From: an uncultured Collinsella sp. | Lineage (GTDB): Bacteria; Actinomycetota; Coriobacteriia; Coriobacteriales; Coriobacteriaceae | Length of the DNA: 64,000 nt | Direction of reading: 5' to 3' | Assembly: GCA_934654775.1 (NCBI GenBank) | Contig: CAKUGR010000014.1 | Location: 1-64,000, forward strand | Shown here: in pieces, positions 31,326-47,078 of the stretch | Numbering within the stretch: position 1 is the stretch's first letter | How the letters are laid out: the number at the start of each line of letters is the position of its first letter | Made by a program: the position numbers and the translations under genes | Notes under the pieces: model-generated | Told to the model about the DNA's origin: nothing | Seen by the model: the letters and a program-made list of their open reading frames with translations, nothing else | Database searches by the model: none

Positions 31326-31402
31326 ATATGGGAATTCCGACTTCGCTTATGCCTATGCTTAGGCGTTGTCGTCGTTGTTCTGTGCGCGAGTAAGGTCAAA
31401 TT

Positions 31403-31480
31403 TCTGCATTTCATCCGATTTCGGTACTAAAAATCTCTGCATTTCATCGATAATAGTCGATATAAATATCTGCATTTCAT
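31403..31480. repeat. Three 33-bp-spaced TCTGCATTTCAT repeats
   Basis: TCTGCATTTCAT occurs at 31403-31414, 31436-31447 and 31469-31480, exactly 33 bp apart, ending 24 bp before the ATPase start. The spacing equals about three helical turns and also eleven codons. It may be a binding array controlling the gene. The surrounding 309-base gap holds otherwise only the nested hairpin. Confidence 0.75.
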
Positions 31481-31503
31481 TTATCGAGGCGATGGGAGAG
31501 CTT

Positions 31504-32865
31504 ATGTTGCGCAGGAAAATCGCTGATGAGCTTGATTGTTGGCAGAGATCCATTGAACGAAAGGCGTTGTTCGTCACGGGTTCTCGCCAAATCGGTAAGA
31601 GCTACTCGATTCGCGAGTTCGGGAAGTCAAACTACGCAACCTATATCGAGCTCAATCTCGCGGAAAACCGCCAGGCAAAAGACGCCCTTCTCGGGGCGAG
31701 GGATGCTGATGACTTCATCAGCAGGGTGACGCTTCTCACGGGCAAGTCGATAGCGCCGGGCAAAACTCTCGTATTTATCGATGAGGTGCAGGAGGCGCCG
31801 GACATCATGACGATGGCCAAGTTCCTTGTCGAGGACGGCCGTTGTCGCTGGGCGTTCTCGGGGTCCATGCTTGGGACCCAATTCAAGGGCGTCAGGTCTT
31901 ATCCCGTGGGGTACGTCCATGAGCTCAGGATGTTCCCGCTGGATTTTGAGGAGTTCAGCTGGGCGATTGAGGTGAGCGAAGAGGCGAGGCGCTCGATTCG
32001 CGATGCGTGCCGCAACGAGACGCCGGTTCCTGGTTATATTCACGACGCAATGATGGCTAACTTCAGGACCTATATCGTCGTTGGCGGTATGCCGGAGGTC
32101 GTGCAGCGATTCCTCGACACGCAGGGTGATCTGGCGTCCGTCCACCAGCTTCAGTCCGATCTGAACGGGCAATACCGTCGGGATATCTCAAAATACGCGA
32201 ACGGACGCGCGCTCCAGGTGCAGAGCATTTTCGACCAGCTGCCCGTCATGCTGGAGGGCGAGAACAAGCGTTTCGTGCTCAACTCCATAGATCCCAAGGC
32301 GCATTACGAGAAATACCAGCGAGATTTTGTCTGGCTTGTCGATGCCGGCGTCGCTCTCAAGACCGACATCGTGACCGAGCCCAAGTCCCCGCTGCTTAAG
32401 ACGGCACGGCCGTCCCAGTTCAAGCTGTACCAGTCCGATACCGGGATGCTGATGGCCCGTTATCCTATCGGGGTCGCCCAGGCGGCGTACCTCGACAGCA
32501 AGGAGCCCAACCTCGGCGGCGTGTACGAAAACGTGGTGGCTCAGCAGCTGGCTGCCCAAAATCGCCAGCTTTACTACTATCAGACAAAAAAGCGCGGTGA
32601 AGTGGACTTTGTGGTTGACGGACCGGATGGAACGGCTGTTCCGATCGAGGTTAAATCGGGCTCCTACTACCATGCGCACGCCGCACTCGGCCATGTGCTT
32701 GAAACGGCCGAGTATGGCGTAAAACGCGGGATTGTTTTCTCGAGAGGCAACGTTGAGCGTGACGGGGGCGTTCTCTATCTGCCTCTGTATGCGATCTGGA
32801 CCCTTTCGGATGTTTTTGGTGACTCCCGTGCCGAGGGGATAAAGCTGGAGGTCAAACCCGTCTAG
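31504..32865 (+). CDS. DUF4143-type ATPase with C-terminal nuclease-like domain
   Basis: This ~453-residue protein has an AAA-type ATPase domain: Walker A GSRQIGKSYS, Walker B LVFIDEVQEAP, and an arginine region GSMLGTQFKG. The C-terminal half is a DUF4143 domain with a PD-(D/E)XK-like core (GEVDFVVDG...IEVKSG). Such proteins are common, often mobile, and their task is unclear. The ATG at 31504 has GGGAG five bases upstream; ATG 31492 is an alternative. The gene lies between ~215-bp direct repeats that copy the end of the previous gene, so it looks like an inserted cassette. Three spaced repeats precede it. Confidence 0.85.
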   Translation: MLRRKIADELDCWQRSIERKALFVTGSRQIGKSYSIREFGKSNYATYIELNLAENRQAKDALLGARDADDFISRVTLLTGKSIAPGKTLVFIDEVQEAPDIMTMAKFLVEDGRCRWAFSGSMLGTQFKGVRSYPVGYVHELRMFPLDFEEFSWAIEVSEEARRSIRDACRNETPVPGYIHDAMMANFRTYIVVGGMPEVVQRFLDTQGDLASVHQLQSDLNGQYRRDISKYANGRALQVQSIFDQLPVMLEGENKRFVLNSIDPKAHYEKYQRDFVWLVDAGVALKTDIVTEPKSPLLKTARPSQFKLYQSDTGMLMARYPIGVAQAAYLDSKEPNLGGVYENVVAQQLAAQNRQLYYYQTKKRGEVDFVVDGPDGTAVPIEVKSGSYYHAHAALGHVLETAEYGVKRGIVFSRGNVERDGGVLYLPLYAIWTLSDVFGDSRAEGIKLEVKPV

Positions 32866-33128: not shown

Positions 33129-33575
33129 CTATAGTTGCTCGAGCATGGCGGTACAACCGTCGAGCACGTCGCGGTAGGTGGCATCGAAGTTGCCGGTGTA
33201 CCAGGGATCGGCCACGTCGCCGGGGCGCTCGGTCCAATCGAGCAAGCGCGTAATCTTGTCTGTGGGGTCGTCGCCAAAGATGCGACGCAGGCCACGCGCG
33301 TTCTCAGCATCCATATAGACAATATGATCCCAGTCGCCATACTCCGCGCGACGCACCTGACGCGCGCGATGTGCTACGACGGGAATCCCGACCTCGCGCA
33401 GCTTGGCAACGGTGCCGCGATGTGGCGTGTTGCCGATCTCCTCGGTCGAGGTCGCAGCAGAATCGATAACGAACTCCGCCTCGCGTCCGGCACGGCGCAC
33501 CAGCTCAGTAAACACCGACTCAGCCATCGTCGAGCGACAAATGTTCCCATGGCAGATAAACAGGATTTTATGCAC
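33129..33575 (-). CDS. Low-molecular-weight protein-tyrosine phosphatase
   Basis: This 148-residue enzyme has the P-loop CHGNICRS at residues ~8-15 immediately after the first strand, a DSAATSTEEIGN segment, VYMDAENARGL and the catalytic-acid loop DVADPWYTG. It dephosphorylates Tyr-phosphorylated proteins in the cytoplasm or acts on small aryl phosphates. A GTG start at 33575 follows GGAG by seven bases. An ATG frame to 33647 runs through a dispersed palindrome and is rejected. A decayed copy of the P-loop region is at 37721-37762. Confidence 0.92.
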   Translation of the reverse strand: MHKILFICHGNICRSTMAESVFTELVRRAGREAEFVIDSAATSTEEIGNTPHRGTVAKLREVGIPVVAHRARQVRRAEYGDWDHIVYMDAENARGLRRIFGDDPTDKITRLLDWTERPGDVADPWYTGNFDATYRDVLDGCTAMLEQL

Positions 33576-33595
33576 GGAAGATCTCCTATCTAAGG

Positions 33596-33657
33596 ATGTG
33601 ACAAAGGGACCGCTCACAATGTGACAAAGAGACAGTCCCTTAGTCACATTGTGAGCG
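33596..33657. repeat. Dispersed palindrome (family 1), compound copy
   Basis: A half copy ATGTGACAAAGGGAC (33596-33610) is followed by a long hairpin, CGCTCACAATGTGAC with its complement at 33643-33657, which encloses another degenerate copy. Confidence 0.8.
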
Positions 33658-33895: not shown

Positions 33896-34256
33896 TGGAT
33901 GCCGCCGTCATCAGCAACGTGACTTAGGTAATCGAAATATTCCTTAATCGCCGCAGCCACACCGTCCTTGCAGCAGGTTGGGCTCAAGGCAACGAGCGTA
34001 TCGGCCTCATAATCGAAGACCAAGCCGATGACATCGCATTCGCTACCACCAGCATCACCGAAAACACCGGCGGTAGCTTTCTCGAGGAACACCTCGATTG
34101 CGACTCCTCGAGCGCGTGGCGATCGCCTGGCTGGTGACCGATCTCGCAATGATCGACCGCGCAGTCAGATTTGACTACCTTAAAATGCTCGTCATCAATG
34201 AAAGGAGCGCGATGATTCGCCGTCACATCGGCTGCATGACCTGCGAGCTCGCCTAG
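33896..34256 (+). pseudogene. Broken YraN/UPF0102-like gene
   Basis: A perfect AGGAGG lies eight bases before ATG 33896, but codon 11 is TAG (33926-33928). The frame then reads VIEIFLNRRSHTVLAAGW, GLIIEDQADDIAFATTSI and SFLEEHL, resembling the YraN order (RRGxxILAxNW, IDLIAxDxxxLVFVEVK, SPEEA). After DCDSS a one-base shift is needed to continue with ERVAIAWL, RAVRFDYL and HIGCM up to TAG 34254. Two lesions make it a pseudogene. The reverse-strand frame over this stretch lacks a ribosome site. The ~320-base gap before it (33576-33895) holds the palindrome, a small GCTGTTC/GAACAGC hairpin at 33837-33858, and no gene. Confidence 0.6.
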
Positions 34257-34338
34257 GCTCAACACGGGCGGTGCCGCAAATTTCCCTTCGAGCTATCCCC
34301 CGCGATGCATATCCCTGGTGCCCGGGAAAAGGATCCGC

Positions 34339-36630
34339 CTACAGAGTCATGATGTCCAATGACTGAATCTTGTCATAGTAGTCGCATATAAGCTCATACT
34401 GATCGTGGCTCACGCTATAGTTTTTTGTGCTAAGCAACTGCTTCCTGACCGTACTCAAAGCCGACATCCACTCAGTAGAATCGGTCTTGTTATGCGCCTT
34501 CCCGTCATCAATAAGGCGCTCGAAATAGCTCTTAAACAGTTTACTCCAATTCTGAGACCAGGTGGCAACTTTTCGGCATTCTTCCAGTGTTACCTCGCGC
34601 CATGGCTCTTGTTTGGCTCCCGTTTCGAATTCCCGATCAGATGCACGTTTGTTAAGCGTGCTAAAAACTGGTCTGTCGACGCCGACACGCAACCAATCAG
34701 TGCCGTATTCCTGGCTTAAAAGCTTCTCAAAATCGTTGGCGATGCGTTCTTCAATTGCAGTCAATTTTGAAAGCGAATCTTCGTTATATTGCATGCTGTT
34801 GTCTCTGATCCAGTCGCTTAGCCCTTCAGGAGCAAATTCCTTATGGGCCTCATGCACGATTTGTCTGAATTTAAAATGGCAATCTCTGGTAGCATTTCCT
34901 CCATATTTTTTCGTAAACGAATCTCGCTGTCCGCGGTCAAGCTGTTCTATATGATTTACCAATGGAAGCAAATAAAATGATGCATCCTCGACCAAATCAT
35001 CTATTTCGGCATTTCTGATATCAATTGCGTTGGAATCGCGAAGATGCTGCAGAATGTCTGCAAAGATGCATATGAGGGCATATATACCTACGTTAACGGT
35101 GAAGATGGCTCCTTCTTTGTTCGAACGCTCCCATTCATCGGGGCTAGCGCTTCTTACATACGCTAGGCAACCAATCAGATATTTGCGAATTTTCTCATAA
35201 GACGTGTCGATATTTCCATACTCGAAAAGACCATCTTGGACCATGGATCCTTTTTTGTATTTGCCCAGATAGCCAGCTTTATCAATAGCGCTATCAATAA
35301 ACGGAAGCGTTATCGAACGGCAGGGTCCCTTTGTGTTTTCTCCAACAATAACCCGATCGTATAACGGAGAACGCTTAATTTCCCCAAGGTCTTGCGCAAT
35401 TCTCGAGCGCAGGGCTTTTTGTCTATCGGAAACATCCTTTGCATCCCAAAGCAAGTCGGCATTCAGCGTGGTGCGCAATGTTTGGGGAACGGCCTTCTGC
35501 TTTTCATTGATATCCATGAACATCTTTATTTGCTCGATATTGTCCATATCGTAGAAGGCGACAACAGGAATGGTGTCGGATTCAGCGTGGTCGCTATCGG
35601 CGTATCCATACAGCCTGTGCTGCCCATCAATAACGTAAATCGAGCGATACTTTTTAGGAAGCTCCAGTATTCCGATTCTCGAATCAGAGTCGTTTGGCTG
35701 GTTCTTTTTCGGTGCTTGCTCGAAACGCGGTGATTCGTTTGCAACATTGACAATGATGGAGTTCGGGAAAAATCCCCCATCATTAACAAATTTTTGAATA
35801 TCCTTCAGGCGGTTCTTTTTGATAAGCCTTTGATATGTTGGCAAGACCTCATCAGGCTGGGCGCTATTTCGATGAAGGATGTACGACATCTTAAGAAGCT
35901 TGGAGGGTTCAATAGAGAATGAGTAGTAGGCGCGCCCTCCCATTTTCCCCTTGATTGCAGCGACCCTTGTGTCCATCCCGGCTATCTCTTGATTGGCAAA
36001 CAGGTTACCTAGCAGCTGATATCTCGTTGCTTTTCCTAGCGTTTTCCCAAGGGCCTCATAATAGTCGATAGTGGTTTCATCAAAATGCTTAATATTTTTT
36101 GCCGCTAGCAAATCTTTATTTTTGTCACCAAGGTCGTAGTTGTTCGTTGCGAATACGCAGACCATTTTTTGAGTCGGAAACTTTTGCTTGAGCTGGTTAA
36201 ACACATGCCTTCTATAGTCGGCGATTGCTTCGATATCGGTCTTAAAGTTGCTTTGGGTGCCTGGCCTGTTTGCGCACTTGCATTCAATTAGCAGCAAGAT
36301 TTCGTTGTCCGCAGCAAGGACGTCAATCTGCTTGCTCGAAGACTTCCCATTTTGGCAATAGTCAACAGAGAAGGATCTGTCTCTGTTCATGTGGGAAAAA
36401 CCAAGTTTGTACAGCATCGTCCACACACGATTCTCGAAAATCTCGTCAGTGGGTTTTTTCTTCTTTAGCTTGACTCGCCTTCTTGCAAGCGTTCGGTCAA
36501 ACTCCCAACCGTCCGACTCATAGCGCGCTTGAGCTTCTTCAACCTGCGTTGTGAAGATGTAGTCCTTTGTTCGCTCGCGTTTGGCAGAGTCCAGCTCTTT
36601 CCCAGAGACAATTTCGCTAAGCCAGTCCAT
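34339..36630 (-). CDS. PD-(D/E)XK nuclease-like plus DGQHR-domain protein
   Basis: This 763-residue protein joins two recognisable parts. Residues ~62-160 look like a restriction-endonuclease fold: Glu66 in EIFENRVW, Asp103 in QIDVLAAD, and Glu115-Cys-Lys117 in LLIECK. Residues ~225-460 form a DGQHR domain: YVIDGQHRLYGY (DGQHR at 335-339) and FMDINEKQKAV. DGQHR proteins include DndB of the phosphorothioation system; the motif resembles ParB-type nucleotide sites. The last 300 residues, largely helical, are unknown. It is translated after a Dam-type methylase with a 14-base overlap. AT content is far above that of neighbours (sampled lines 30-43% GC), so it was probably acquired. A restriction or self-regulating modification role is inference. 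Confidence 0.8.
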   Translation of the reverse strand: MDWLSEIVSGKELDSAKRERTKDYIFTTQVEEAQARYESDGWEFDRTLARRRVKLKKKKPTDEIFENRVWTMLYKLGFSHMNRDRSFSVDYCQNGKSSSKQIDVLAADNEILLLIECKCANRPGTQSNFKTDIEAIADYRRHVFNQLKQKFPTQKMVCVFATNNYDLGDKNKDLLAAKNIKHFDETTIDYYEALGKTLGKATRYQLLGNLFANQEIAGMDTRVAAIKGKMGGRAYYSFSIEPSKLLKMSYILHRNSAQPDEVLPTYQRLIKKNRLKDIQKFVNDGGFFPNSIIVNVANESPRFEQAPKKNQPNDSDSRIGILELPKKYRSIYVIDGQHRLYGYADSDHAESDTIPVVAFYDMDNIEQIKMFMDINEKQKAVPQTLRTTLNADLLWDAKDVSDRQKALRSRIAQDLGEIKRSPLYDRVIVGENTKGPCRSITLPFIDSAIDKAGYLGKYKKGSMVQDGLFEYGNIDTSYEKIRKYLIGCLAYVRSASPDEWERSNKEGAIFTVNVGIYALICIFADILQHLRDSNAIDIRNAEIDDLVEDASFYLLPLVNHIEQLDRGQRDSFTKKYGGNATRDCHFKFRQIVHEAHKEFAPEGLSDWIRDNSMQYNEDSLSKLTAIEERIANDFEKLLSQEYGTDWLRVGVDRPVFSTLNKRASDREFETGAKQEPWREVTLEECRKVATWSQNWSKLFKSYFERLIDDGKAHNKTDSTEWMSALSTVRKQLLSTKNYSVSHDQYELICDYYDKIQSLDIMTL

Positions 36631-37471
36631 CGATATCCCCTATCCTCGCTTGAGGAATATTAGTAAATATATATTCCTGAGTGTTTCCTCGACGTGCATT
36701 GCGACCACCTAAAGTGCTGCTGCGAGAAACATCTAGTTTGATACTGCCAGGAGAGAACAAGTCATCAATTACTTCATGATGAGCGTTCGTAAGAATATAG
36801 AAGGCGCCAAGTTCGGAAATGGCGTCGATGCAACTCTTCAATTCAAATTGGTCATCGAGAGAGAAAAGCTTCTTGTTGTATTCGATAAAACCATTGTTGT
36901 TGTGCGCGACCGTATACGGTGGGTCGAGAAAAACAAGATCTCCGGCCTTTACGTCTTTTAGTGATTCTTCAAAAGAACGAGCGAGTAGCGTTGCCCCCTG
37001 CAAGGCTTCGCTTGCATGGCGAATTCGCTGAAAATTAAATTTATAGCTGTCTTTTTTCCCGTAAGGCACATTGTATTGGCCTTTTCGATTAACCCTATAA
37101 ATGCCGTTGAACGATGTTCTGTTCAAGTAAATAAACCGAGCGGCTCTTCGTATCGAATCATCCGGTTCCTCTGACCGTATGGCGTAATACTGATCTTCAT
37201 TTACGGCCCACTCGTCAATAATCTTGATTACGCTCTCGACGTTATCGCGAACTTCAACGTAAGTGTTAATGAGTTCTTCGTTGATGTCCGAGAGGATCGC
37301 TCCGTCTGGAGACAAAGCAAAGAACACGGAGCCTCCGCCGAAAAATGGCTCGTGGTAATTATTGAAATCGAGGTCTTTAATCAAGCCCGGTAGGTATTTT
37401 ATCAGCCAGTTCTTTCCTCCAGCCCACCGCAAGAACGGCTTTGAGCTTCTATTAAGGGAATGATCCGACAT
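36617..37471 (-). CDS. Dam-type (D12 class) adenine-N6 DNA methyltransferase
   Basis: This 284-residue methylase has the alpha-class order: FLRWAGGKNWL (motif X), EPFFGGGSVFF (motif I, SAM site), LSDINEELINTY, YLNRTSFNGIYRVNRKGQYN, VPYGKK, and catalytic DPPY in LVFLDPPYTVAHNNNGF. The NRTSFNGxYRxNxxGxFNVPxG block is that of Dam/DpnM relatives, but GATC specificity is not certain. ATG 37471 has only GAGAG upstream. It is the first gene of a two-gene, AT-rich unit with the nuclease/DGQHR protein and would supply the self-marking activity in a restriction-like system. Confidence 0.9.
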   Translation of the reverse strand: MSDHSLNRSSKPFLRWAGGKNWLIKYLPGLIKDLDFNNYHEPFFGGGSVFFALSPDGAILSDINEELINTYVEVRDNVESVIKIIDEWAVNEDQYYAIRSEEPDDSIRRAARFIYLNRTSFNGIYRVNRKGQYNVPYGKKDSYKFNFQRIRHASEALQGATLLARSFEESLKDVKAGDLVFLDPPYTVAHNNNGFIEYNKKLFSLDDQFELKSCIDAISELGAFYILTNAHHEVIDDLFSPGSIKLDVSRSSTLGGRNARRGNTQEYIFTNIPQARIGDIDGLA

Positions 37472-37979
37472 CTAAACTCTCGCGTTCAATTCTTTGTCAA
37501 GGCCGATAATTACGCAATTGATGAACATTATATATTTCCTTGAGCTTCTTTCGAGAAGTAACTGAAGAACTATTAATGGTCTTGACGAACCTGGTTTTGA
37601 CGAACGGTTCATGCGACTTATTTGAAACACCCCGTCGGCGGGACTCCATTAGCGTAAAAATGGCGTAGACCTCACTCAAATCAGAGCTGGAAACCTAAAT
37701 TACATGCTGCCTCGACCTCACCTGCAAATGTTTCCGTGGCAGATAAACGTGAGTTTTATCACGTTCCGAAACTCTTCATTTATGAACTCTTTTCGACCGC
37801 CTGCCTCTTGATATGCAATCGGTCAAAACTTGTCGTTTTCCTCATCTCCTCATGCGACATGGTTGAGCATATCGAATTCGACGGGATCCTTTTCATCGGA
37901 ATTGCCACATGCGCGATCAGACGTTCATTAACGCTGAGTGGAGATGCCATCTCTGTTGCTCTGAGCGATAAATAATCAT
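37472..37979. other. 508-base accessory gap with phosphatase relic and possible promoter
   Basis: No intact gene is supported. On the minus strand a TATAAT (37527-37532) and a TTGACA (about 37495-37500) could serve the methylase. The only homologous coding trace is the phosphatase P-loop fragment at 37721-37762. Short open frames on both strands (37497-37679, 37736-37975) show no family. Confidence 0.5.
37721..37762 (-). pseudogene. Relic of a low-molecular-weight tyrosine phosphatase N-terminus
   Basis: Reading leftwards from 37762, GTG starts VIKLTFICHGNICR and then meets TGA. This is the start and P-loop of the phosphatase encoded at 33575 (VHKILFICHGNICRS), with strong base identity around TTTATCTGCCA. 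The rest has decayed. Confidence 0.7.
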
Positions 37980-38270
37980 TTAGCGAAACAGCTCATCGTG
38001 GGGACCGGTTCTCTGGAAGACCGCAAGACCGTTGCCCGTTCTCCAGATGACAAGCCAGTCGCCGGCATTGGCAACGTGGCACTCGTTGCTGCCGGACCAG
38101 TTTCCTTTGAGCATGTGCATCTTGTGCCGTTGCCTCAAAATGCTCCTGGATTCATCGGTGTCTTCCGCAACGAGGCCGATAACCTCCTTGAGCAGGTCAA
38201 GGCTGTAGTGCTTCTTGGACAGCCTCTTCGAATCCTTCTGGAGCTGCGGGGTGAACTGAATCTCCAGCAT
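37980..38270 (-). CDS. YafQ/RelE-family mRNA interferase toxin
   Basis: This 96-residue protein fits the YafQ branch of RelE toxins: IQFTPQLQKDSKRLSKKHYSL at the start, a helix with LLKEVIGLVAE, HKMHMLKGNWSGSNECHV (the typical DHxLxGxWxGxRECH pattern, slightly altered) and the end LVIWRTGNGLAVFQRTGPHDELF with the conserved catalytic-region His. Such toxins cut mRNA on the ribosome. It follows its antitoxin by two bases on the same strand. Confidence 0.9.
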   Translation of the reverse strand: MLEIQFTPQLQKDSKRLSKKHYSLDLLKEVIGLVAEDTDESRSILRQRHKMHMLKGNWSGSNECHVANAGDWLVIWRTGNGLAVFQRTGPHDELFR

Positions 38271-38272
38271 CG

Positions 38273-38536
38273 CTAGAGTCCCATTGCGGAGAACATCTCG
38301 TCAGCGTTCTTGTAGCCATGCCCGCCTTTTGCGATGATCTCGTCGGCTTCGCGGATGCTTCGCAGACTCTCCTCGTTGGGCTCCGGATAGGCTAGGTTCA
38401 AGGGTATGCGGCGCTCGCGCACGATCTGGCGGTAGAAAGCTCGGGTGACGGAAGACAGGTCGAAGCCAAAGTCCTCGACGATGCGGGAGGCGTCGAGCTT
38501 GGTCTGCTCGTCAACGCGTACGGTAACAGAACTCAT
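38273..38536 (-). CDS. RelB/DinJ-family antitoxin
   Basis: This 87-residue antitoxin has the ribbon-helix-helix start SVTVRVDEQTKLDASRIVEDFGFDL (cited by ends), then the DinJ-like VTRAFYRQIVRERRIPLNL and a C-terminal toxin-binding tail. The ATG at 38536 is chosen since AAAGGAG lies six bases before it; another ATG two codons earlier abuts the site. It should bind the dyad upstream and repress the pair. Confidence 0.9.
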   Translation of the reverse strand: MSSVTVRVDEQTKLDASRIVEDFGFDLSSVTRAFYRQIVRERRIPLNLAYPEPNEESLRSIREADEIIAKGGHGYKNADEMFSAMGL

Positions 38537-38549
38537 GGCCATCTCCTTT

Positions 38550-38815: not shown

Positions 38816-39565
38816 TTATTTCCTAGCCAGTTTGAAATAGCGCTCAAATATCAATTCAAACACGTAATAAAACATCAGGCGACTGTCGAGGTCCATGCTG
38901 CCCAAGCGGATTTCTTTTTGCACGGTGTAGATGGGGTAGTCGGCTAGTTTCGAGAGAGAATTCCGAGAAAAGCCGGTGAGCGTGACGATCTTGCATCCGC
39001 GCGTTTTGGCTATCGATGTGGCGTCAATAGACACCTGCGTCTCGCCGCTTACGGAAACGCTGAAGACCAGGTCGTTTTTGCCGAGGAGTTCTGCGTAGTG
39101 CCTCATGACATGGCGCTCACTGAGCGTATCGGTGTTCTTGCCCATGATCTTGAGCTTCTCCGCCATTTCTAGGCATGGGTATTTCGAAAAGCCCGAGCAG
39201 AAGAACACGATATGCGAGGCGTCCTGGATAAGACTCACGACGGAATCGATGACCCGATCGTTAAGTAAGTCTTTGGTCTGTACGAGCTGGGTGTCGAGCG
39301 GAAGTGCCTCGATAGTGAATCGATTGCGGTCAAGTGAGGCAGAATACGATCGTTTGAGCTCGGTGAACCCCGAGAAGCCAAGTTTATGAGCAAGCCTGAC
39401 GATTGTATTGGGAGCGACGAAGAACCGCTCGGCAACGCTCTTAAGCGTGACGTCGTCAACATCATCACGCAGCTCGATGATGTAGCGCATGATCTCGCTT
39501 TCGAGATCGTTGAGCTTGCTCTCGCCAGCTCGCACATGATCATAAAAAGATTCTTGATCTTTCAT
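38816..39565 (-). CDS. RpiR/MurR-family transcriptional regulator 1
   Basis: This ~249-residue regulator has an N-terminal RpiR helix-turn-helix (VTLKSVAERFFVAPNTIVRLAHKL cited by ends, then GFSGFTELK) and a C-terminal SIS sugar-phosphate domain (HIVFFCSGFSKYPCLEMAEKL, VFSVSVSGETQV, GCKIVTLTG). It is divergent from the first GH4/PTS locus and likely senses a phosphorylated disaccharide. ATG 39565 is chosen by homology of the start; GAGGGG is 12 bases upstream, so ATG 39595 remains possible. Confidence 0.88.
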   Translation of the reverse strand: MKDQESFYDHVRAGESKLNDLESEIMRYIIELRDDVDDVTLKSVAERFFVAPNTIVRLAHKLGFSGFTELKRSYSASLDRNRFTIEALPLDTQLVQTKDLLNDRVIDSVVSLIQDASHIVFFCSGFSKYPCLEMAEKLKIMGKNTDTLSERHVMRHYAELLGKNDLVFSVSVSGETQVSIDATSIAKTRGCKIVTLTGFSRNSLSKLADYPIYTVQKEIRLGSMDLDSRLMFYYVFELIFERYFKLARK

Positions 39566-39689
39566 AAGATGTTTCAGCCCCTCGCACCTCGCCATACATA
39601 TGGTACCGCTTTGTGTAGCCAGGTGAGAAATCGGCAACCGGCCACGATTGCCTATCGCTCCTGAACTGGGCAAACGTGCGTGTCCGTCT

Positions 39690-39703
39690 ACACATATCTG
39701 TGT
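39690..39703. promoter_or_regulatory. Candidate operator in the rpiR1/GH4 divergent region
   Basis: ACACATATCTGTGT is a 5+4+5 palindrome in the 298-base divergent gap. RpiR-type regulators bind such dyads, but the link is by position only. Confidence 0.3.
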
Positions 39704-39863
39704 TGTGAGCGAAATCATGTGTCCCCGTTTCGCATTGGCCAACACGGGGGTTCGCAAATGATCTCAGGTCGCAAAATAGCAATCGAAACGAAGCAAGCCG
39801 AGGACAACCGCGGAGCCCAAGGTCTTCGAGAACACCGATCAGCCAACCCTGGAGGGACGGAAC

Positions 39864-41189
39864 ATGAAGGATAAGCTCAATATTGTGATCGTTGGCGGCG
39901 GCTCCACGTGGTGCCCCGGCATTCTTAAAGCTCTGACTAAGCACATGGATATTCTGCCGCTGAACCGCGTAATGCTCTATGACATCGATGCCGAGCGCCA
40001 GCGTCCAATCGGCGAGTTTGGCAAGATCCTCTTCGCCGAGGAGGAGCCCGGTGTGGAGTTTGGTTACACCACCGATAAGGACGAGGCTTACACCGACGTC
40101 GACTTTGTGCTCTGCCAGATTCGTACCGGCGGCTACGAGATGCGTAGCAAGGACGAGAAGATTCCGCTGCATATGGGAATCATCGGCCAGGAAACGGTGG
40201 GCCCTGGCGGTATGGCTTACGGTATGCGCTCCATGCATGACATGGTTGAGATCGTCAACGACGTGCGCGCCCACAGCCCCGAGGCATGGATTATCAACTA
40301 CACCAACCCTGCGGCTATCGTGGCATACGGCTTGGAGCGCGTCCTGCCCGATGAGCATCGCGTCCTCAATATCTGCGACCAGCCTGTCAACCTCATGCGC
40401 TCTTACGGACGCCTGCTCGGTCGCGATATGAGCAAGACGGAGCCCGTGTACTTCGGCCTCAATCACTTCGGTTGGTTCAAGCACATCTACGATGAAGAGG
40501 GTCATGACCTCGTCCCGCAGATTAAGGAGTACACGGAGAAGAACGGCTTCCTTCCTGCCGATGCCGAGCAGCGTGATCAGTCCTGGCTTGATACCTACGC
40601 AATGGTCAAGGACATGCTCGAGGACTTCCCCGACTATCTGCCCAACACGTATCTGCAGTACTATCTGTATCCCGAGTACAAGGTCGCTCACCTCGACCCC
40701 GACTACACTCGCTCCGACGAGGTTATCAACGGTCGTGAGAAGCGCGTGTTCGCCGAGTGCGAGCGTGTTGCCAAAGTCGGCACCGCAAAGAACTCCTCGG
40801 TTGTGCAGAACGATGCTCATGGCGATATGATCGTGGAAATCACCTCGGCCATTTATCGCAACACCAACAAGACCTTCATTGTCATCGTGCCCAACAACGG
40901 CATTATCGAGGGCATGCCCGATGACGCCATGGTCGAGGTCGCGGCAAGCGTGGGCGCCAATGGCCCGCAGCCCTATGCTGTTGGCAAGATCGGTACCTTC
41001 TATCGCGGCCTTATGGAGAACCAGTACGCCTATGAGCGCCTGACTGTTGAGGCTTGGATGGAGGGTTCCTACGAGAAGGCTCTGCAGGCACTCACGCTTA
41101 ATCGTCTGGTCGGTGACGCAAAGAAGGCTCGCAAAGTGCTCGACAAGCTCATCGAGGCCAATAAGGATTACTGGCCGGAGCTTAAGTAG
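39864..41189 (+). CDS. GH4 6-phospho-alpha-glucosidase (locus 1)
   Basis: This 441-residue GH4 enzyme has the NAD-binding start IVIVGGGSTWCPGIL, the NTNPAAIV-like INYTNPAAIVAYG, the metal/substrate motif CDQP near residue 173 and FGLNHFGWF. GH4 hydrolases use NAD and Mn and cleave 6-phospho-glucosides by an oxidation-elimination route. A CD(M/Q)P rather than CNVP motif points to the alpha type, acting on maltose-6-phosphate-like products of the next gene's PTS. Start follows GGAGGGACGG. The paralogue at 45510-46835 is equally long. Confidence 0.88.
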   Translation: MKDKLNIVIVGGGSTWCPGILKALTKHMDILPLNRVMLYDIDAERQRPIGEFGKILFAEEEPGVEFGYTTDKDEAYTDVDFVLCQIRTGGYEMRSKDEKIPLHMGIIGQETVGPGGMAYGMRSMHDMVEIVNDVRAHSPEAWIINYTNPAAIVAYGLERVLPDEHRVLNICDQPVNLMRSYGRLLGRDMSKTEPVYFGLNHFGWFKHIYDEEGHDLVPQIKEYTEKNGFLPADAEQRDQSWLDTYAMVKDMLEDFPDYLPNTYLQYYLYPEYKVAHLDPDYTRSDEVINGREKRVFAECERVAKVGTAKNSSVVQNDAHGDMIVEITSAIYRNTNKTFIVIVPNNGIIEGMPDDAMVEVAASVGANGPQPYAVGKIGTFYRGLMENQYAYERLTVEAWMEGSYEKALQALTLNRLVGDAKKARKVLDKLIEANKDYWPELK

Positions 41190-41271
41190 CTAGTTCCATA
41201 GCGCTTGATAACTGTTATGGGGCGTGTGGGCTGTAGAGCTGCACGCCCCGTTTCTTTAAGAGGGGTATCCC

Positions 41272-42834
41272 ATGAACAAAGATGAGCTGCTGGCAAAGTT
41301 CCAGCGCCTGGGCAAAGTCCTCATGACGCCTGTCTTGATCCTGCCAATCGCCGGCATCCTTCAGGGCTTTGGCAATGCCTTTACCAGCCCCACCCTTACG
41401 GCAGCTGTTCCCTGGCTTGCTGCTCCGGGCTTTGCGATTTTCTTTTCGATTCTCAAGGCCGCTGCCGGCATCGTTATGAACAACATCCCGGTTATCTTCT
41501 CGATTTGTCTCGCCTATGGCTTCGCCAAGTCCGAGAAGGCTACCGCGGCGCTTTGTGGCTTTTTGGGCTACATGTGCATGAATTCCGTGATGGGCACGTT
41601 CCTTACGGCGACTGGCGTTATCGATCCCGCGAATCTTACGACGGGCCAGAGCACGATCCTCGGTATCACCACGCTCGACACTGGCGTTATCGGCGGTCTT
41701 CTGGTGGGCGCAATCGTCGCATGGTTGCATAACCGTTACTACAAGATTGAGCTGCCTGCCGTGTTCTCCATCTTCAACGGCACGCGCTTTATCCCGGCGG
41801 TGACGCTGCTCTCATGCAGCATCCTCGCATTGGTCATGTCCTTTGTTTTCCCGTTTATTCAGAACGCTCTCGGTGCGCTGTCCGAGTTCATCAAGACTAC
41901 GGGTGCCTTTGGTGCATTTGTCTACGGCGCCGGCGAGCGCATGCTCCTGCCTTTTGGCCTGCATCACTTTGTCTATTTGCCGTTCTTCTTCACGTCGCTC
42001 GGTGGCGTCGAGACCATCGACGGCCAGACTGTTCAGGGCGCTATCAATATCTACAACGCGATCCTGGGCTCTCCCAGCACGCCGTTTAACATCGAGGTCA
42101 GCCGTTTTGTCATGAACGGCAAGGTTATCTTCGCCATGTTCGGCCTGCCCGGCGCTGCACTCGCCTTCTACAAGACGGCGCTTCCCAAAAACAAGAAGAA
42201 GACCGCAGCACTCATGATCGCCATCGTGGTGCCTTGCATCCTCTCCGGCATTACCGAGCCGCTCGAGTACTCCTTCCTGTTTATCGCGCCCATCCTCTAC
42301 GTGTTCCACGCTCTCATGGCTGGTCTTGCCTATGCGCTGACCTATATCCTGCAGTTCAACGTGGCCGGTTCCGCGTCCTTCGGCGGCCCGCTCCTGTCGT
42401 TGATCTTTAACGGCATTATGGGTGCAGCCAAGGGCTCCAACTGGCAGGTTATCCTGTTCCTCGGCCCCATCTACTTCGTGGCGTACTACTTCGTCTTCAA
42501 GTTCATCATTCTTAAGAAGGACCTAAAGACCCCTGGCCGTGAGGAAGAGTCTGACGATGAGGCCGCAAAGGCTCCCAAGACCGTGATCAGCGATCTCATT
42601 CCCGCCATCGTTGAGGCAGTGGGCGGCGACAACAATATTAAGTCTGTCGAGGCCTGCTTCACCCGTCTGCGAATCCAGCTCAATGACTGTGACAAGGTGG
42701 TTGACGACGCCGAGTTTACCGAAAAGCTCGAAGCGCGTGGCATCGTGCATGTCAACGGCGGCGTGCAGATTGTCTACGGTAACATGGCTTCTAACTACGC
42801 AACCCAGATGCGCGAGCTGCTGGGCATGGAGTAA
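41272..42834 (+). CDS. PTS EIICB transporter, alpha-glucoside type (locus 1)
   Basis: This 520-residue protein has a glucose-family EIIC membrane domain (GERMLLPFGLHHFVYLPFF, GITEPLEYSFLF with the conserved Glu, NGTRFIPA) and a C-terminal EIIB domain with the phospho-Cys in VEACFTRLRIQL. No EIIA domain is fused, so it must share one. It imports and phosphorylates an alpha-glucoside that the upstream GH4 enzyme cleaves. Start follows AAGAGGGG. Confidence 0.92.
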   Translation: MNKDELLAKFQRLGKVLMTPVLILPIAGILQGFGNAFTSPTLTAAVPWLAAPGFAIFFSILKAAAGIVMNNIPVIFSICLAYGFAKSEKATAALCGFLGYMCMNSVMGTFLTATGVIDPANLTTGQSTILGITTLDTGVIGGLLVGAIVAWLHNRYYKIELPAVFSIFNGTRFIPAVTLLSCSILALVMSFVFPFIQNALGALSEFIKTTGAFGAFVYGAGERMLLPFGLHHFVYLPFFFTSLGGVETIDGQTVQGAINIYNAILGSPSTPFNIEVSRFVMNGKVIFAMFGLPGAALAFYKTALPKNKKKTAALMIAIVVPCILSGITEPLEYSFLFIAPILYVFHALMAGLAYALTYILQFNVAGSASFGGPLLSLIFNGIMGAAKGSNWQVILFLGPIYFVAYYFVFKFIILKKDLKTPGREEESDDEAAKAPKTVISDLIPAIVEAVGGDNNIKSVEACFTRLRIQLNDCDKVVDDAEFTEKLEARGIVHVNGGVQIVYGNMASNYATQMRELLGME

Positions 42835-42862
42835 ACGACTCAAACGCACAATCAAGATTAAT

Positions 42863-42902
42863 ACAGGTTGGCGTCCGATTCTTCAATCGGGCGCCAACCT
42901 GT
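42863..42902. terminator. Bidirectional terminator between the two glucoside loci
   Basis: ACAGGTTGGCGTCCGATT pairs with its complement (one mismatch) around CTTC, followed by GCTGTTTTGGGG. It lies after the locus 1 PTS gene and before convergent rpiR2. The remaining ~125 bases to 43026 hold nothing recognisable. Confidence 0.75.
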
Positions 42903-43026
42903 GCTGTTTTGGGGTGAATGGGCAAGTACATGACGTGCTCGCTGCTCTCTTTTGGCGCTGCCTATCGTGTATTCGGACGCCTTGCGACGGTGAGGTGCGT
43001 TCTTTTCGGTTCTAGCGTGTTTGCGG

Positions 43027-43827
43027 CTAGCGCTGCGCCCGAAGTCGATTTGCACAGCTGATATACAGAGCGTTAACCGCGCTTTGTAGGCTCATGCCCT
43101 CAACCAAGGCGGTCGAGTACTCGCTGAGTGACTCCGCGCTCACGGGTAGCAAGAGCTCGCGCGCCCCGTTGTTATCGAATGCCATGTTGCTCGATATCCA
43201 AATAACGCGGCAACCTCGCCGCTTGGCCTCAACGTAAAGATTGAAGATGTGGCTCGTCTTCCCTGAGAACGATACAAAGATGGTTAGATCGTCGGGTTGG
43301 AGCAGGCAGAGCGACGTCTCCTGTCCCTTGACGGAGCCAAATGAGAAGCACAGTCGGTTTACGCGGCTCAGCTTTTCGCAGAGTGAGCGGGCGGCGAGAT
43401 TGGAGAATGAGCTTCCGTATACGTAGACATTTTGCGCATCGAGAAGCCAGTCAACGGCCTGCTCGAGTCGATCCTCAGTGAGCAGGTGTTTTGTTTCAAG
43501 CAAAGAGGTCTCTACGATATCGAAATACCAGGGTATATCGATTTGCTTATGCGCCCTTGCCTCGGTTGTCTCACGCTGGAGCCAAGCGTTGAAGTCGTCA
43601 ACTTGCTCTTTGAACGATCGAAAGCTCGAGCCGTTTACGCGCCTGCAGAAGCGCGAGATGGTCGCGGGCGATGTATTGCACGCGCGGGCAAGTTCTTCTA
43701 TTGAGAGCTCTGGGATCTCGTCGTGATGGGAAAGGGCGTAGAGTGCGATGTGGGCGTCAAGGCTGCCGCCCTTCTCGACGTCTTCGATACAAGACCTGAG
43801 GTTCGAATAGACCTCGTACATCGACAT
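43027..43827 (-). CDS. RpiR/MurR-family transcriptional regulator 2
   Basis: This 266-residue regulator has the RpiR-type helix-turn-helix (LSIEELARACNTSPATISRFCRRV by ends) and a SIS domain (VYVYGSSFSNLAARSL, IFVSFSGKTSHIF, GCRVIWISS). It is the last gene of the locus 2 unit (GH4, PTS, rpiR2, all leftward). A hairpin before it may lower its level. Sequence similarity to RpiR1 is limited to family motifs, so the two loci probably respond to different sugars. Confidence 0.88.
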   Translation of the reverse strand: MSMYEVYSNLRSCIEDVEKGGSLDAHIALYALSHHDEIPELSIEELARACNTSPATISRFCRRVNGSSFRSFKEQVDDFNAWLQRETTEARAHKQIDIPWYFDIVETSLLETKHLLTEDRLEQAVDWLLDAQNVYVYGSSFSNLAARSLCEKLSRVNRLCFSFGSVKGQETSLCLLQPDDLTIFVSFSGKTSHIFNLYVEAKRRGCRVIWISSNMAFDNNGARELLLPVSAESLSEYSTALVEGMSLQSAVNALYISCANRLRAQR

Positions 43828-43846
43828 TCAAATCACTCCAAACAAT

Positions 43847-43882
43847 AATGCCCCGGAGCGGATATGCCATCTCCGGAGCATT
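43847..43882 (-). terminator. Hairpin between PTS 2 and rpiR2
   Basis: AATGCCCCGGAG faces CTCCGGAGCATT; on the minus strand ATTATTGTTT follows. It may be a partial terminator. Confidence 0.55.
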
Positions 43883-43904
43883 GTGGTGAAGCTATGGGAC
43901 GGAT

Positions 43905-45485
43905 TTATTCCATGCCCAAGTATTCTCTCATTTCGACTTTGTAGACAGAAGCTTTATTGCCGTAAACGATCTGAACACCGCCGCCAACGTGCACGATGGC
44001 GCTGGCGCCGAGGTCTTTGGTGAAGACGCTATCGTCCTTGACCAGGGCGGTGTCTTTGAGGCTGAGCCTCAGGCGAGTGAAGCAGGCGTTGACACCCGAG
44101 ATGTTATCGGCTCCGCCCACGGCTTCCACGATCTGCGGGATGAACTCGCTTACCTGAACAGGTGCTTTGGAGTCGATGGTCGACGTGTCATCCGCTGCCT
44201 GCGTGTCATCATCCTCGCGGCCCGGGGTTTTGAGGTCAAATTTCTTGATAAAGGTGCGGAACAGCACGTAATAGATCCCGAAGTAAGCGACGCCGAGCGG
44301 AATAAGCCAGAACCAGTTGGAGCCCTTATCGGCGTTCATGATGCCGTTGAAGATCCACGAGAGGAGCGGTCCGCCGAAGGCGGAAGGCCCGGGCACATTG
44401 AACTGTACCAGGTAGGTGAGTACATACGCGATGCCGCACAGCAGGGCGTGGACCACATAGAGTACGGGCGCTACAAAGAGGAAGGAGTACTCGAGCGGTT
44501 CGGTTATGCCCATGATGGCGGCCGGGATAACGGCGGCGATCATGAGGGAGCCGACCTTCTTTTTATTCTCGGGACGGGCACAGTGGTAGATGGCGAGCGC
44601 CGCCGCGGGCAGGCCGCACATGGCGAACAGCACCTTGCCGTTCATGACGTATTTTGAGATGTCGATGTCGTACATCATGCCGGGCGTGTTGAGCATGGCG
44701 TTGTAGATGTTGACAGCACCCTCGACGGTCTGGCCGTCAACCTGGATGCTACCGCCCAGAGAAGTGAAGAAAAACGGCAGGTAGATGAAATGATGCAGGC
44801 CGAAGGGCAGAAGCATGCGCTCGGAGAAGCCATAGATGAACGCGCCAAACACCCCGGTGGAATCGATGAGTGTCGAGGCGGCCTTTAGGCCGGTTTGCAC
44901 AAACGGAAACACGAAGGCGAGCGCAACGCCCACTAGGCTTGCGAAAACGACGGTGAGGGCGGGGACGCAGCGCGTGCCGTTGAAGATGCCGAGCACCGGC
45001 GGAAGCTGCACCTTATAGAATCGGTTGTGGATCCACGCGACTACCAAGCCGATGATGATGCCGCCGAATACGCCGGTGTCGAGTGTGGTTACGCCCAGGA
45101 TGGCGTTCTGACCGGTCTGTAGGTTGGCGGGATCGATGGTGCCCAGCAGGATAAGCAGCTGGCCCATGATCGTGTTCATGGTCATGTAGCCGATGAAGCC
45201 TGAGAGTGCGGCGGTCGCCTTCTCGGCCTTGGCGTAACCGTAGGCGATGCAGATCGCAAAGAGAACCGAGATGTTACCATTGATAACGTTGCCGGCTGCT
45301 TTGATGAGCGTGCTAAAGATCACCATCGGCTCGGTGCCCAAAAGCGGGCAGAGCGAGATGAGGTTAGCATTGGAAAGGGCGGAGCCCAGACCGACCAAAA
45401 TGCCGGAAACGGGCAGGAGGAGGACCGGCGCCATGAGCACCTTGCCGAGTCTCTGGAACTCGCTGTAGAGCTTGCTTTCTTTCAT
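43905..45485 (-). CDS. PTS EIICB transporter, alpha-glucoside type (locus 2)
   Basis: This 526-residue protein is a clear paralogue of the locus 1 transporter: FGAFIYGFSERMLLPFG (cited by its middle), GITEPLEYSFLF, NGTRCVPAL and an EIIB Cys in VNACFTRLRLSL. No EIIA is present. The ATG at 45485 follows AAGGA; it starts 24 bases after the GH4 gene stop. It supplies phosphorylated disaccharide to the upstream GH4 enzyme. Confidence 0.92.
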   Translation of the reverse strand: MKESKLYSEFQRLGKVLMAPVLLLPVSGILVGLGSALSNANLISLCPLLGTEPMVIFSTLIKAAGNVINGNISVLFAICIAYGYAKAEKATAALSGFIGYMTMNTIMGQLLILLGTIDPANLQTGQNAILGVTTLDTGVFGGIIIGLVVAWIHNRFYKVQLPPVLGIFNGTRCVPALTVVFASLVGVALAFVFPFVQTGLKAASTLIDSTGVFGAFIYGFSERMLLPFGLHHFIYLPFFFTSLGGSIQVDGQTVEGAVNIYNAMLNTPGMMYDIDISKYVMNGKVLFAMCGLPAAALAIYHCARPENKKKVGSLMIAAVIPAAIMGITEPLEYSFLFVAPVLYVVHALLCGIAYVLTYLVQFNVPGPSAFGGPLLSWIFNGIMNADKGSNWFWLIPLGVAYFGIYYVLFRTFIKKFDLKTPGREDDDTQAADDTSTIDSKAPVQVSEFIPQIVEAVGGADNISGVNACFTRLRLSLKDTALVKDDSVFTKDLGASAIVHVGGGVQIVYGNKASVYKVEMREYLGME

Positions 45486-45509
45486 GATGTTCCTTCGATG
45501 CGCGGGGAG

Positions 45510-46835
45510 TTAGGACAGGGTCGGCCAATAATCGCCGTTCGCTTCGATCAGGTCGTCGAGGATTTGGCGCGCGACGGTAGTCGAAGGGACGGTCTTGTTG
45601 ATTGCGATGGCTTCGAGCGCCTTCTGGTAGGAATGCTCGTAATATGCGTCGACGGCGAGCTTCTCACTGGCATTCTGCTCTTCGATAAGCCCCTTGTAAA
45701 AGGTGGGGATAGCAGGCTGGCTGATGGGTTCGGGGCCCCAAGAGCGCAGGTAAGCGGGGACCTCGACCATGGCGTCGTCGGGCAGATTGGGGATGGCGCC
45801 GTTATTCTCGACGATTACGAGATAACGTTCGCACTTGTTGTAGGCGATAGAGGCGGCTGCGTCGACGATAAAGTCGCCAAAGACCGTGAAGCTCTGTACG
45901 GGGCTCTTGTAATTGGCGGGATCTGCCAGGTACTTGTCGTGCTCGGCAAACATCTCCTTCTCGCGTCCGTTGATGACGTTGTCGGCGCGCGTCCAGTTGG
46001 GGTCCATGTCATCTGCCATGTCTTTGGAGTACAGGTAGTACTGCAGGTAGCTGTTGGGCAGATACTCGGGATAGTCCTTCACAATCTTGACGTATTGACC
46101 CCAGGTGTGCATCCAGTCCTTGTCCTTGTGATGCTTGTCGCTCACGGCCATGCCGTGCTCGAGAATCATCTGACGGAGCTCCGGCAGACGATCGCGCCCC
46201 TGCTTGTCGTAGATTTTGGTAAACCAGCCAAAGTGATTGAGTCCAAAATACATGGGGTCGATATCGCGCCAACTGGGAAGTCCGAGCATCTTAGAGTACG
46301 AGAGCAAGATAGCCGTGGGCATATCGCAGATGTTAAGGATATGGTCGTTGCCAAACTCGCGACGCGTGGCCTCGGCGACAACTGCGGCGGGGTTGGAATA
46401 GTTGAGGATCCAGGCGTCTGGACTGTATTTCTTGGTGTAGCGTACGAGGTCGAAGACGCCGGGGATGGACCTGATGCCATAGGAGATCGAACCGCCGGCG
46501 CCGCAGGTTTCCTGTCCCACGCAACCGTACTTGAGAGGGATGCGCTCGTCCTGGCGACGCATCTGAAGGCCACCCTGGCGGATTTGCGCGAAGACGAAGT
46601 CGACATCGGTGAATGCCTTTTCGGGATCGGTCGTCACGACAACTTCGATGTCAGGAGCTTCCTGCTCGATGAACTGCTTCATGATGTCGTAGACGAGATG
46701 CATGCGCTTCTCGTCGATGTCGTACAGGGCGAGTTTGCGCAGCGGCAATTCGTTTTTCTTTTGCAACAGGCTTTGGATGATGCCGGGAGTGTGGGTGCTG
46801 CCGGCTCCGGCGATTACAACTGCTTTCTTGTCCAT
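45510..46835 (-). CDS. GH4 6-phospho-alpha-glucosidase (locus 2)
   Basis: This 441-residue GH4 enzyme has VVIAGAGSTHTPGII (NAD site), NYSNPAAVVAEA, CDMP near residue 172 and FGLNHFGWFTKI. CDMP is the form known from maltose-6-phosphate hydrolases of the GlvA/MalH group, so alpha-glucoside phosphates are the likely substrate. It needs NAD and a divalent metal. It is the first gene of the leftward unit and is preceded by two repeated boxes. Start follows AAAGGGG. Confidence 0.9.
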   Translation of the reverse strand: MDKKAVVIAGAGSTHTPGIIQSLLQKKNELPLRKLALYDIDEKRMHLVYDIMKQFIEQEAPDIEVVVTTDPEKAFTDVDFVFAQIRQGGLQMRRQDERIPLKYGCVGQETCGAGGSISYGIRSIPGVFDLVRYTKKYSPDAWILNYSNPAAVVAEATRREFGNDHILNICDMPTAILLSYSKMLGLPSWRDIDPMYFGLNHFGWFTKIYDKQGRDRLPELRQMILEHGMAVSDKHHKDKDWMHTWGQYVKIVKDYPEYLPNSYLQYYLYSKDMADDMDPNWTRADNVINGREKEMFAEHDKYLADPANYKSPVQSFTVFGDFIVDAAASIAYNKCERYLVIVENNGAIPNLPDDAMVEVPAYLRSWGPEPISQPAIPTFYKGLIEEQNASEKLAVDAYYEHSYQKALEAIAINKTVPSTTVARQILDDLIEANGDYWPTLS

Positions 46836-46864
46836 GTGGTAAACCCCTTTCGTGTGGATTGACC

Positions 46865-46921
46865 ATTTCAGACTACGAAAGCTTTACCTGCGATTCTATC
46901 GATTTTCAGATTGCGAAAAAC
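46865..46921. promoter_or_regulatory. Repeated TTTCAGAYTRCGAAA boxes before GH4 gene 2
   Basis: TTTCAGACTACGAAAG (about 46866) and TTTCAGATTGCGAAAA (about 46905) are two copies of a TTTC-N7-GAAA dyad about 39 bp apart, upstream of the locus 2 unit. RpiR2 is the natural candidate to bind. The rest of the 46836-47078 gap shows nothing else. Confidence 0.5.
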
Positions 46922-47078
46922 GATAGCGATAATCTTAACAGGATGCGTTTTGCGTGGTTAAATAGCGCCGGGAAAGATGCTGACCTGGGCGGCAGACGAC
47001 GTGTTGCATGGCTGCAGGAGCGAACGCCAGACGGTCAAAAGATGGTGGGCGGTGCTGGGGCTTTTGACTGCAATTGCG

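Follow-up and report, generated by a model that had tools for sequence, protein, structure and literature searches.

A Dam-type methylase paired with a predicted nuclease-DGQHR protein: a probable mobile restriction-modification system in an uncultured Collinsella

A contig of an uncultured Collinsella sp. (assembly GCA_934654775.1, contig CAKUGR010000014.1, positions 1 to 64,000; this whole stretch of 64,000 nucleotides (nt) is called here the window) carries on its reverse strand two overlapping genes, one for an adenine methylase and one for a protein of 763 amino acids, hereafter the effector, in which a predicted nuclease is joined to a DGQHR domain and a helical tail. We consider it probable that they form a compact, mobile two-gene restriction-modification system, whose nuclease would be gated by a nucleoside triphosphatase (NTPase). 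The architecture, the fold models, the conserved residues, the pairing with the methylase, the joint evolution of the two proteins and the presence elsewhere of a radical-SAM-type gene in place of the methylase were all computed. Numbers starting with L denote the loci examined and those starting with P the listed homologues.

The gene pair and its products

The genes, domains and motifs of the pair are located as follows:

36617..37471, reverse strand: Dam/DpnM-type N6-adenine DNA methylase, 284 amino acids, first gene of the pair (TIGR00571, PF02086, DpnM 2dpm)
34339..36630, reverse strand: 763-amino-acid effector, with a predicted PD-(D/E)XK nuclease, a DGQHR/ParB-fold domain and a helical HEPN-like C-terminus (TIGR03187, AlphaFold2 model)
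36617..36630, reverse strand: overlap of the two genes, 14 bases
36001..36630, reverse strand: predicted PD-(D/E)XK nuclease domain, Card1/Can2-like, residues 1-210 (model)
36277..36324, reverse strand: predicted catalytic residues, D103 to E116-x-K118 (conservation in 134 sequences)
35491..35967, reverse strand: DGQHR domain, predicted ParB/Noc NTPase fold, residues 222-380 (model)
35614..35628, reverse strand: DGQHR motif, residues 335-339 (invariant)
34342..34800, reverse strand: HEPN-like (Swt1-type) domain, residues 611-763, R-x4-H motif lost in the window copy

Both open reading frames (ORFs) are complete and free of internal stops. A preliminary description, made from the sequence, had reported the 14-base overlap and a base composition unlike that of the neighbours, and both were confirmed: the guanine-cytosine (GC) content is about 45% (45.3% and 44.6% in the two genes) against about 60% (59.9%) in the window, and at third positions the pair has 51% and 47%, compared with 68-88% for three further genes of the window that were measured. 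Scans for promoters and terminators gave nothing exceeding shuffled sequences.

The first product had been taken for a complete adenine methylase with a DPPY motif, and this proved correct. The motif lies at residues 183-186, and the protein scores 213 bits against the dam model TIGR00571 (cut-off 114.85), which places it in the Dam family, and 165 bits against PF02086; its closest structure in the PDB is DpnM (2dpm, E 1e-50). DPPY and a Dam-like hairpin, NG[IL]YR.N, are kept in all 13 methylases compared, and the hairpin sequence resembles those of DpnM and Dam. Because of this close match to DpnM and Dam, hairpin included, the target site of the methylase is probably GATC.

As for the effector, its AlphaFold2 model has a mean predicted local distance difference test score (pLDDT) of 87.5. 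A search returned 2975 homologues at E <= 0.001, out of the 7997 scored candidates that shared most words with it, and the alignments of the 120 homologues listed cover 92-100% of the query. The preliminary description had called the N-terminus PD-(D/E)XK-like and had made its proposal depend on that part folding as a nuclease; structure prediction gives, with high confidence, a PD-(D/E)XK fold for residues 1-210, and the fold and the D...E-x-K residues are both present. In 134 sequences D103 is kept in all, E116 in 132 and K118 in 131, and the three positions (with E or D at 116) are retained in 120/120 listed relatives of the window's subfamily. The nearest fold neighbour is AF1548, followed by Card1 and Can2, and the matches of this part to the PADLOC and Pfam Card1 profiles are weak. 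Such retention of the catalytic residues bears on the idea that the genes are a regulatory or housekeeping Dam pair, in which the DGQHR protein would be a DndB-like transcription regulator and its nuclease domain functionally vestigial. DndB has been described as regulating the transcription of dnd genes in an ATP-dependent manner (PMC10853773, PMC4507180; papers are cited by PubMed Central (PMC) identifier and, here and below, on the basis of the extracts available), but the effector falls far below the equivalog cut-offs (38 against 328 bits for DndB, 77 against 300 for DpdB) and, together with the intact triad, this makes such a role very improbable.

The DGQHR domain was also found as proposed. 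It scores 183.2 bits against TIGR03187 (cut-off 58.85) and 65 bits against the DndB family PF14072 (cut-off 29.1), and it adopts a ParB-CTPase fold in the model. The five residues of the motif are invariant in 134/134 sequences, and in 120/120 of the sister subfamily described below, as are Q267 and R268 in 134/134; in 9/9 pairs compared, conservation is higher in the ParB part than in either the nuclease or the C-terminal part. The earlier suggestion that the DGQHR part senses the state of a nucleotide or of DNA may hold, and the ParB NTPase fold and the invariant motif are consistent with it. Alternatively, the genes could be a plain type II-like pair, in which methylation blocks the cutting of the site and the DGQHR domain is not a nucleotide switch and serves only to bind DNA or to dimerise. 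The pairing and the overlap of the genes are as in ordinary restriction-modification operons, and ParB-fold proteins can serve as DNA-bound clamps. The invariance of DGQHR and Q267/R268 and the superior conservation of the ParB part argue for more than a passive role, however, and a DndB-like ParB-fold protein has been reported to bind ATP and GTP (PMC12704722), so that we regard this simpler pair as somewhat doubtful.

The rest of the protein had been described as a long unknown C-terminus. The window copy itself has no match to the HEPN Swt1-like family PF18731 at E <= 5, but part of the region can be identified as HEPN-like in relatives: PF18731 was found in 23/25 relatives at E <= 1 and in 16/48 alignment members at E <= 5, and P0326 exceeds its cut-off (28.6 against 27.5). 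In the window effector the region is modelled as all-helical, and a Foldseek search with the model of this part by itself returned no match at E <= 0.001. The catalytic motif R-x4-6-H is absent from the window copy. Among the listed relatives, the strict R-x4-H motif, defined by a sequence pattern tied to the tryptophan that precedes it, occurs in 46/120 of the window subfamily and in 119/120 of the sister subfamily; a pattern was used for the former because gaps misplace the alignment columns (the alignment scores 0/120). A looser pattern gives 49/120 and also matches off-position stretches, for example in L047.

Partner genes and the state of the nuclease across loci

Gene context was tallied over 18 distinct loci with a full-length effector (window, L001, L003-L006, L008, L009, L011-L016, L046, L047, L111 and L115). 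Short DGQHR matches (L007, L010, L017-L045 and L118) were left out as not full length, and repeats were counted once (L002/L106, L048, L049/L102, L050/L104, L101, L103, L105, L112-L114, L116, L117 and the near-identical L108). A methylase gene overlaps the effector gene or lies a few bases away in 14/18 of these loci, so that homologues without an adjacent methylase, which the preliminary description would have counted against its proposal had they prevailed, are the minority in this sample. In the other four (L008, L009, L111 and L046) a radical-SAM-type gene lies nearby and the methylase is absent from the DNA examined, which is short in L046 (a 4.4-kb contig) and on the downstream side of L111 (2.4 kb); by tblastn, both partners occur together in 0/18. 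The methylase is upstream of the effector in seven of the 14 loci (window, L001, L003, L011-L013 and L047) and downstream in seven (L004-L006, L014-L016 and L115). It reaches the contig end in L015 and L115 and is interrupted in L047, while L015 has a second, weaker methylase upstream.

The two proteins also vary together. Their pairwise identities correlate (Mantel r 0.78, p 0.0002, n=13, with L005 included and L047 excluded), also when near-duplicates are removed (r 0.59, p 0.0024, n=11). When the best 120 clusters of each protein were compared, 15 effectors matched a methylase cluster in the size of the longest contig, where 0.6 were expected and none of 400 shifted controls gave more than 4; the clusters matched in this way include ones named Paenibacillus and Sporolactobacillus. 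The nuclease fold model, the methylase in 14 of the 18 loci and this co-variation support the restriction-like pair first proposed.

The state of the nuclease differs with the partner. The triad is intact in 13/14 methylase loci, the exception being L005, and in 1/4 radical-SAM loci, L046 (Fisher p 0.019, kinship ignored); read the other way, 13/14 intact-triad loci have a cognate methylase alongside, again with the exception of L046. Therefore, the loss of K118 is not strict with the radical-SAM-type partner. In the sister subfamily, obtained by a search with L008 (Novosphingobium aromaticivorans pNL1), K118 is present in 0/120 listed clusters, the residue being Thr in 113, Arg in 5, Ala in 1 and Val in 1, with D103 kept in 117/120 and E116 in 119/120. 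In L111, which is distant from the L008 clade, position 103 is N and position 118 is R. A tree of 44 sequences, 26 of them hand-picked from the 240 listed homologues, requires at least three changes at lysine 118; these could be gains or losses, L111 and L046 being long branches of unsure placement, and we read them as losses because lysine is the catalytic state. The strict R-x4-H motif is kept in all the mutated-nuclease loci (L005, L008, L009 with its near-copy L108, and L111). Over the 240 listed relatives, the looser pattern gives 71 with K118 only, 49 with both features, 119 with the ribonuclease (RNase) motif only and 1 with neither (P0296, whose C-terminal end is aberrant), and the strict pattern gives 74 with K118 only and 46 with both; this distribution is confounded by ancestry.

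The frequent loss of the lysine where the methylase is missing fits an enzyme that is dangerous when its protecting mark is absent, and L046, where the nuclease is intact and the partner is of the radical-SAM type, suggests that another mark might come from this partner. The same loss would be expected if the nuclease needed the mark as a licence, as in SspE, whose DGQQR NTPase domain senses the host mark and licenses the nuclease (PMC13251355). Here the DGQHR domain would read N6-methyladenine on self DNA, hydrolyse nucleotide and give the nuclease its licence to attack unmethylated DNA; where the methylase is missing, the nuclease would be harmless and, being unlicensed, would decay in most such loci. 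The change in the sister branch is nevertheless near-uniform, with threonine dominant and D103 and E116 kept, which looks like selection rather than decay, and a methyl-reading pocket was not identified; we judge licensing of this type unlikely.

A wider possibility, which we put forward tentatively, is that the effector carries two warheads under a single switch and can exchange its marking partner. The central DGQHR NTPase would arm both a DNase at the N-terminus and a HEPN RNase at the C-terminus, and the radical-SAM-type partner, exclusive of the methylase in the loci examined, may write a protective mark of its own. With the methylase, the DNase would be kept and the RNase be optional; with the radical-SAM partner, the DNase would usually be disarmed and the RNase kept, leading to abortive infection by RNA cutting.

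The label 'radical-SAM-type' is taken from plasmid records: the Pfam radical-SAM scores (20.8 and 17.0) lie below the cut-off of 29.5, and the L046 piece is without a match. The proteins are related to that of L008 with 74% (L009), 41% (L111) and 41% (L046) identity. This family adjoins the effector far from the plasmid clade at L111 8896-12421, a virus-classified contig, and at L046 543-4266, an actinobacterial genome. On alphaproteobacterial plasmids a recurrent cluster (L008 10350-18220, L009 4320-14708, L109 7983-15792 and L110 7947-12224) combines a short DGQHR protein, a radical-SAM-type protein and a GHKL-type ATPase, in some cases with a PIN-like protein, a helicase and a ParB-domain protein; the radical-SAM-type gene matches 12 plasmid records, and full-length effectors are found in 5. 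Short DGQHR proteins also occur in other settings. At L107 4096-9164 (genome G114) a Dam-type and a second methylase lie near one in a different arrangement, and at L010 4956-5960 the inovirus PfAC19 has a 334-amino-acid DGQHR protein adjoining its repressor.

Insertion site, mobility and neighbours

Three further features relate to the boundaries of the pair:

34243..37747: stretch shared with Senegalimassilia anaerobia L001 at 84.8% DNA identity, comprising both genes and short flanks
37725..37763, reverse strand: upstream edge, relict copy of the 5' end of a gene for a low-molecular-weight protein-tyrosine phosphatase (85% over 40 columns against 33538-33576)
33129..33647, reverse strand: intact gene at the other edge, presumably for a low-molecular-weight protein-tyrosine phosphatase, as named from its sequence (homologue in 39/43 genomes of the genus)

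In the window and in L001 the shared stretch starts inside the truncated 5' copy of the phosphatase gene, and the intact copy stands on the opposite side; in L001 the duplicated flank measures 169 bp at 96% identity (6758-6926 and 12112-12280). That two families of the order, their kinship being told from the nearest genome, carry the stretch at an identical site points to site-specific insertion and suggests a conserved insertion site at the phosphatase gene. At 20 same-genus loci, three of which are short stretches, no clear truncated copy was found, and L092 has a weak 28-base match unlike it. In L091 (genome G151) about 70 bp separate the phosphatase gene from the DNA that starts at 38816 in the window; therefore, the window has about 5.25 kb extra at that site. 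No integrase was recognised at the island, and a narrow literature query returned no paper on integration sites in phosphatase genes.

The effector is rare in the order (3/395 genomes at E <= 1e-40), and the pair is also found in virus-classified contigs, with sister forms on plasmids, some of them conjugative. At least 80% of the window protein is covered in 0/4 matching phage records and in 5/32 matching plasmid records, and the sister query gave no phage record at E <= 1e-30. When virus-classified contigs were scanned, P0015 and P0012 each found one locus, the second on the contig of L011. An inserted island with this distribution could also be a selfish addiction module, or a weapon between elements, in which restriction serves the maintenance of the mobile DNA itself. 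Restriction-modification systems, though, often combine defence and addiction, and a branch with a mutated nuclease and a conserved HEPN motif fits methylation addiction poorly; we find this explanation rather improbable.

The preliminary description had seen no dnd, BREX or classical restriction-enzyme gene nearby, and this is true of the 12 neighbouring proteins scanned with PADLOC, among which no dpd gene was found either. The matches obtained were an ABC transporter to mad3/mad8, an AAA_14/DUF4143 ATPase (window 31366-32865) to the single-gene defence candidate PDC-S01, strongly (626 bits), and, weakly (E 7e-4), a MarR-like regulator to a CARF model. A stretch of 0.7 kb separates the effector from the phosphatase gene, and the two ORFs in it that were tested were without a Pfam match at E <= 0.1. 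A YafQ/RelB-type toxin-antitoxin pair (37980-38542) lies inside the DNA that is extra relative to G151. A second variable block at the same phosphatase-gene flank, at 38816-47090 as compared with L091 and L081, contains, by sequence, sugar phosphotransferase and regulator genes, and in several relatives the flank instead abuts window 47091. Lastly, several loci of the same genus share a short repeat that lies at 33612-33653 and contains a CACATTGTGA-type palindrome.

Proposed mechanism and comparison with known systems

For the restriction-modification system that we favour, we infer the target site, the NTPase activity, the gating, the cutting of DNA and the role in defence. The Dam-type enzyme would methylate host adenine, probably at GATC. 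The DGQHR ParB-fold domain would bind, and probably hydrolyse, nucleotide; judging from DndI and SspE, it would also couple recognition of DNA and of its methylation state to the N-terminal nuclease, and the PD-(D/E)XK nuclease would cut invading unmethylated DNA. Many relatives retain an intact R-x4-H in a Swt1-type HEPN tail, which probably gives them an RNase as well, possibly serving as a suicidal backup. Such a backup has been proposed for HEPN domains fused to restriction enzymes (PMC3710099) and, by this analogy, may apply to the relatives and not to the window copy; since R-x4-H is gone from the latter, DNA cleavage should be its sole output.

If this is true, the restriction system is widespread, with thousands of homologous proteins in several phyla by listed names, and one simple methylase replaces the multi-gene machinery of phosphorothioate or deazaguanine modification, so that an NTPase-gated, mark-sensing nuclease would become accessible to standard assays of GATC methylation. 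The DGQHR domain, familiar mostly from the accessory proteins DndB and DpdB, would then be the switch of a nuclease effector. The exchange of the methylase for a radical-SAM-type partner points to a second marking system, and the branches that have repeatedly lost the DNase lysine while keeping the RNase motif would be a natural test of the interchange between DNA-targeting and self-targeting immunity on one protein.

Several assignments to described systems were tried and rejected. The equivalog cut-offs are not reached for DndB (TIGR03233, 38.4 bits against 328), DpdB (NF041060, 76.5 against 300) or Dnd-DGQHR1; the effector shares the DGQHR domain with DndB and DpdB, but adds nuclease and HEPN-like domains. 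PD-Lambda-5 is also a methylase with a partner, and the methylase matches its B profile (55.6 bits); the effector has no match to the A profile at E <= 1. For the GmrSD/SspE/DndI group, DUF262 (GmrSD_N) has no Pfam match in the window protein at E <= 5 (4/48 alignment members match, best E 0.39), and the C-terminal HNH nuclease DUF1524 is absent from its Pfam matches, the C-terminus being modelled as all-helical.

The extracts retrieved from the open-licence PMC literature held no description of a PD-(D/E)XK-DGQHR-HEPN protein with a Dam-type partner. Saro_3948, tabulated by Anantharaman et al. 2013 (PMC3710099) as a Swt1-family HEPN domain fused to ParB, is very probably the protein of the sister form L008, its tag prefix fitting Novosphingobium aromaticivorans; the extract at hand mentions neither the PD-(D/E)XK part and the Dam partner, nor the radical-SAM-type alternative and the two-warhead trade-off. 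Card1 and Can2, CRISPR-activated PD-(D/E)XK nucleases, are a near fold family for residues 1-210, whereas the effector has a ParB-fold domain in the place of CARF, which was not detected. Type IV enzymes such as GmrSD and BrxU likewise join a ParB/Srx-type NTPase to a nuclease, and GmrS resembles the DGQHR domain (PMC4619093), but they cut modified DNA and need no methylase, whereas the effector is paired with its own. In DpnII-type GATC restriction-modification the methylase is close to the one described here, but the restriction partner in our case is a three-module protein of 763 amino acids without a PDB sequence match at E <= 10.

The nearest working models are the phosphorothioate effectors DndI and SspE (DUF262 with HNH), which also combine a ParB-superfamily NTPase bearing DGQ[QH]R, a nuclease and a host DNA mark. 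In DndI the host mark stimulates the ATPase and frees the enzyme from self DNA (PMC11662687), and in SspE it acts as the licence described above; the present pair may be wired in either way. The effector differs from both in that its NTPase is of the DGQHR/PF14072 type, its predicted nuclease is an N-terminal PD-(D/E)XK rather than a C-terminal HNH, its mark would be the Dam-type adenine methylation made by a single gene, and it carries a HEPN-like tail.

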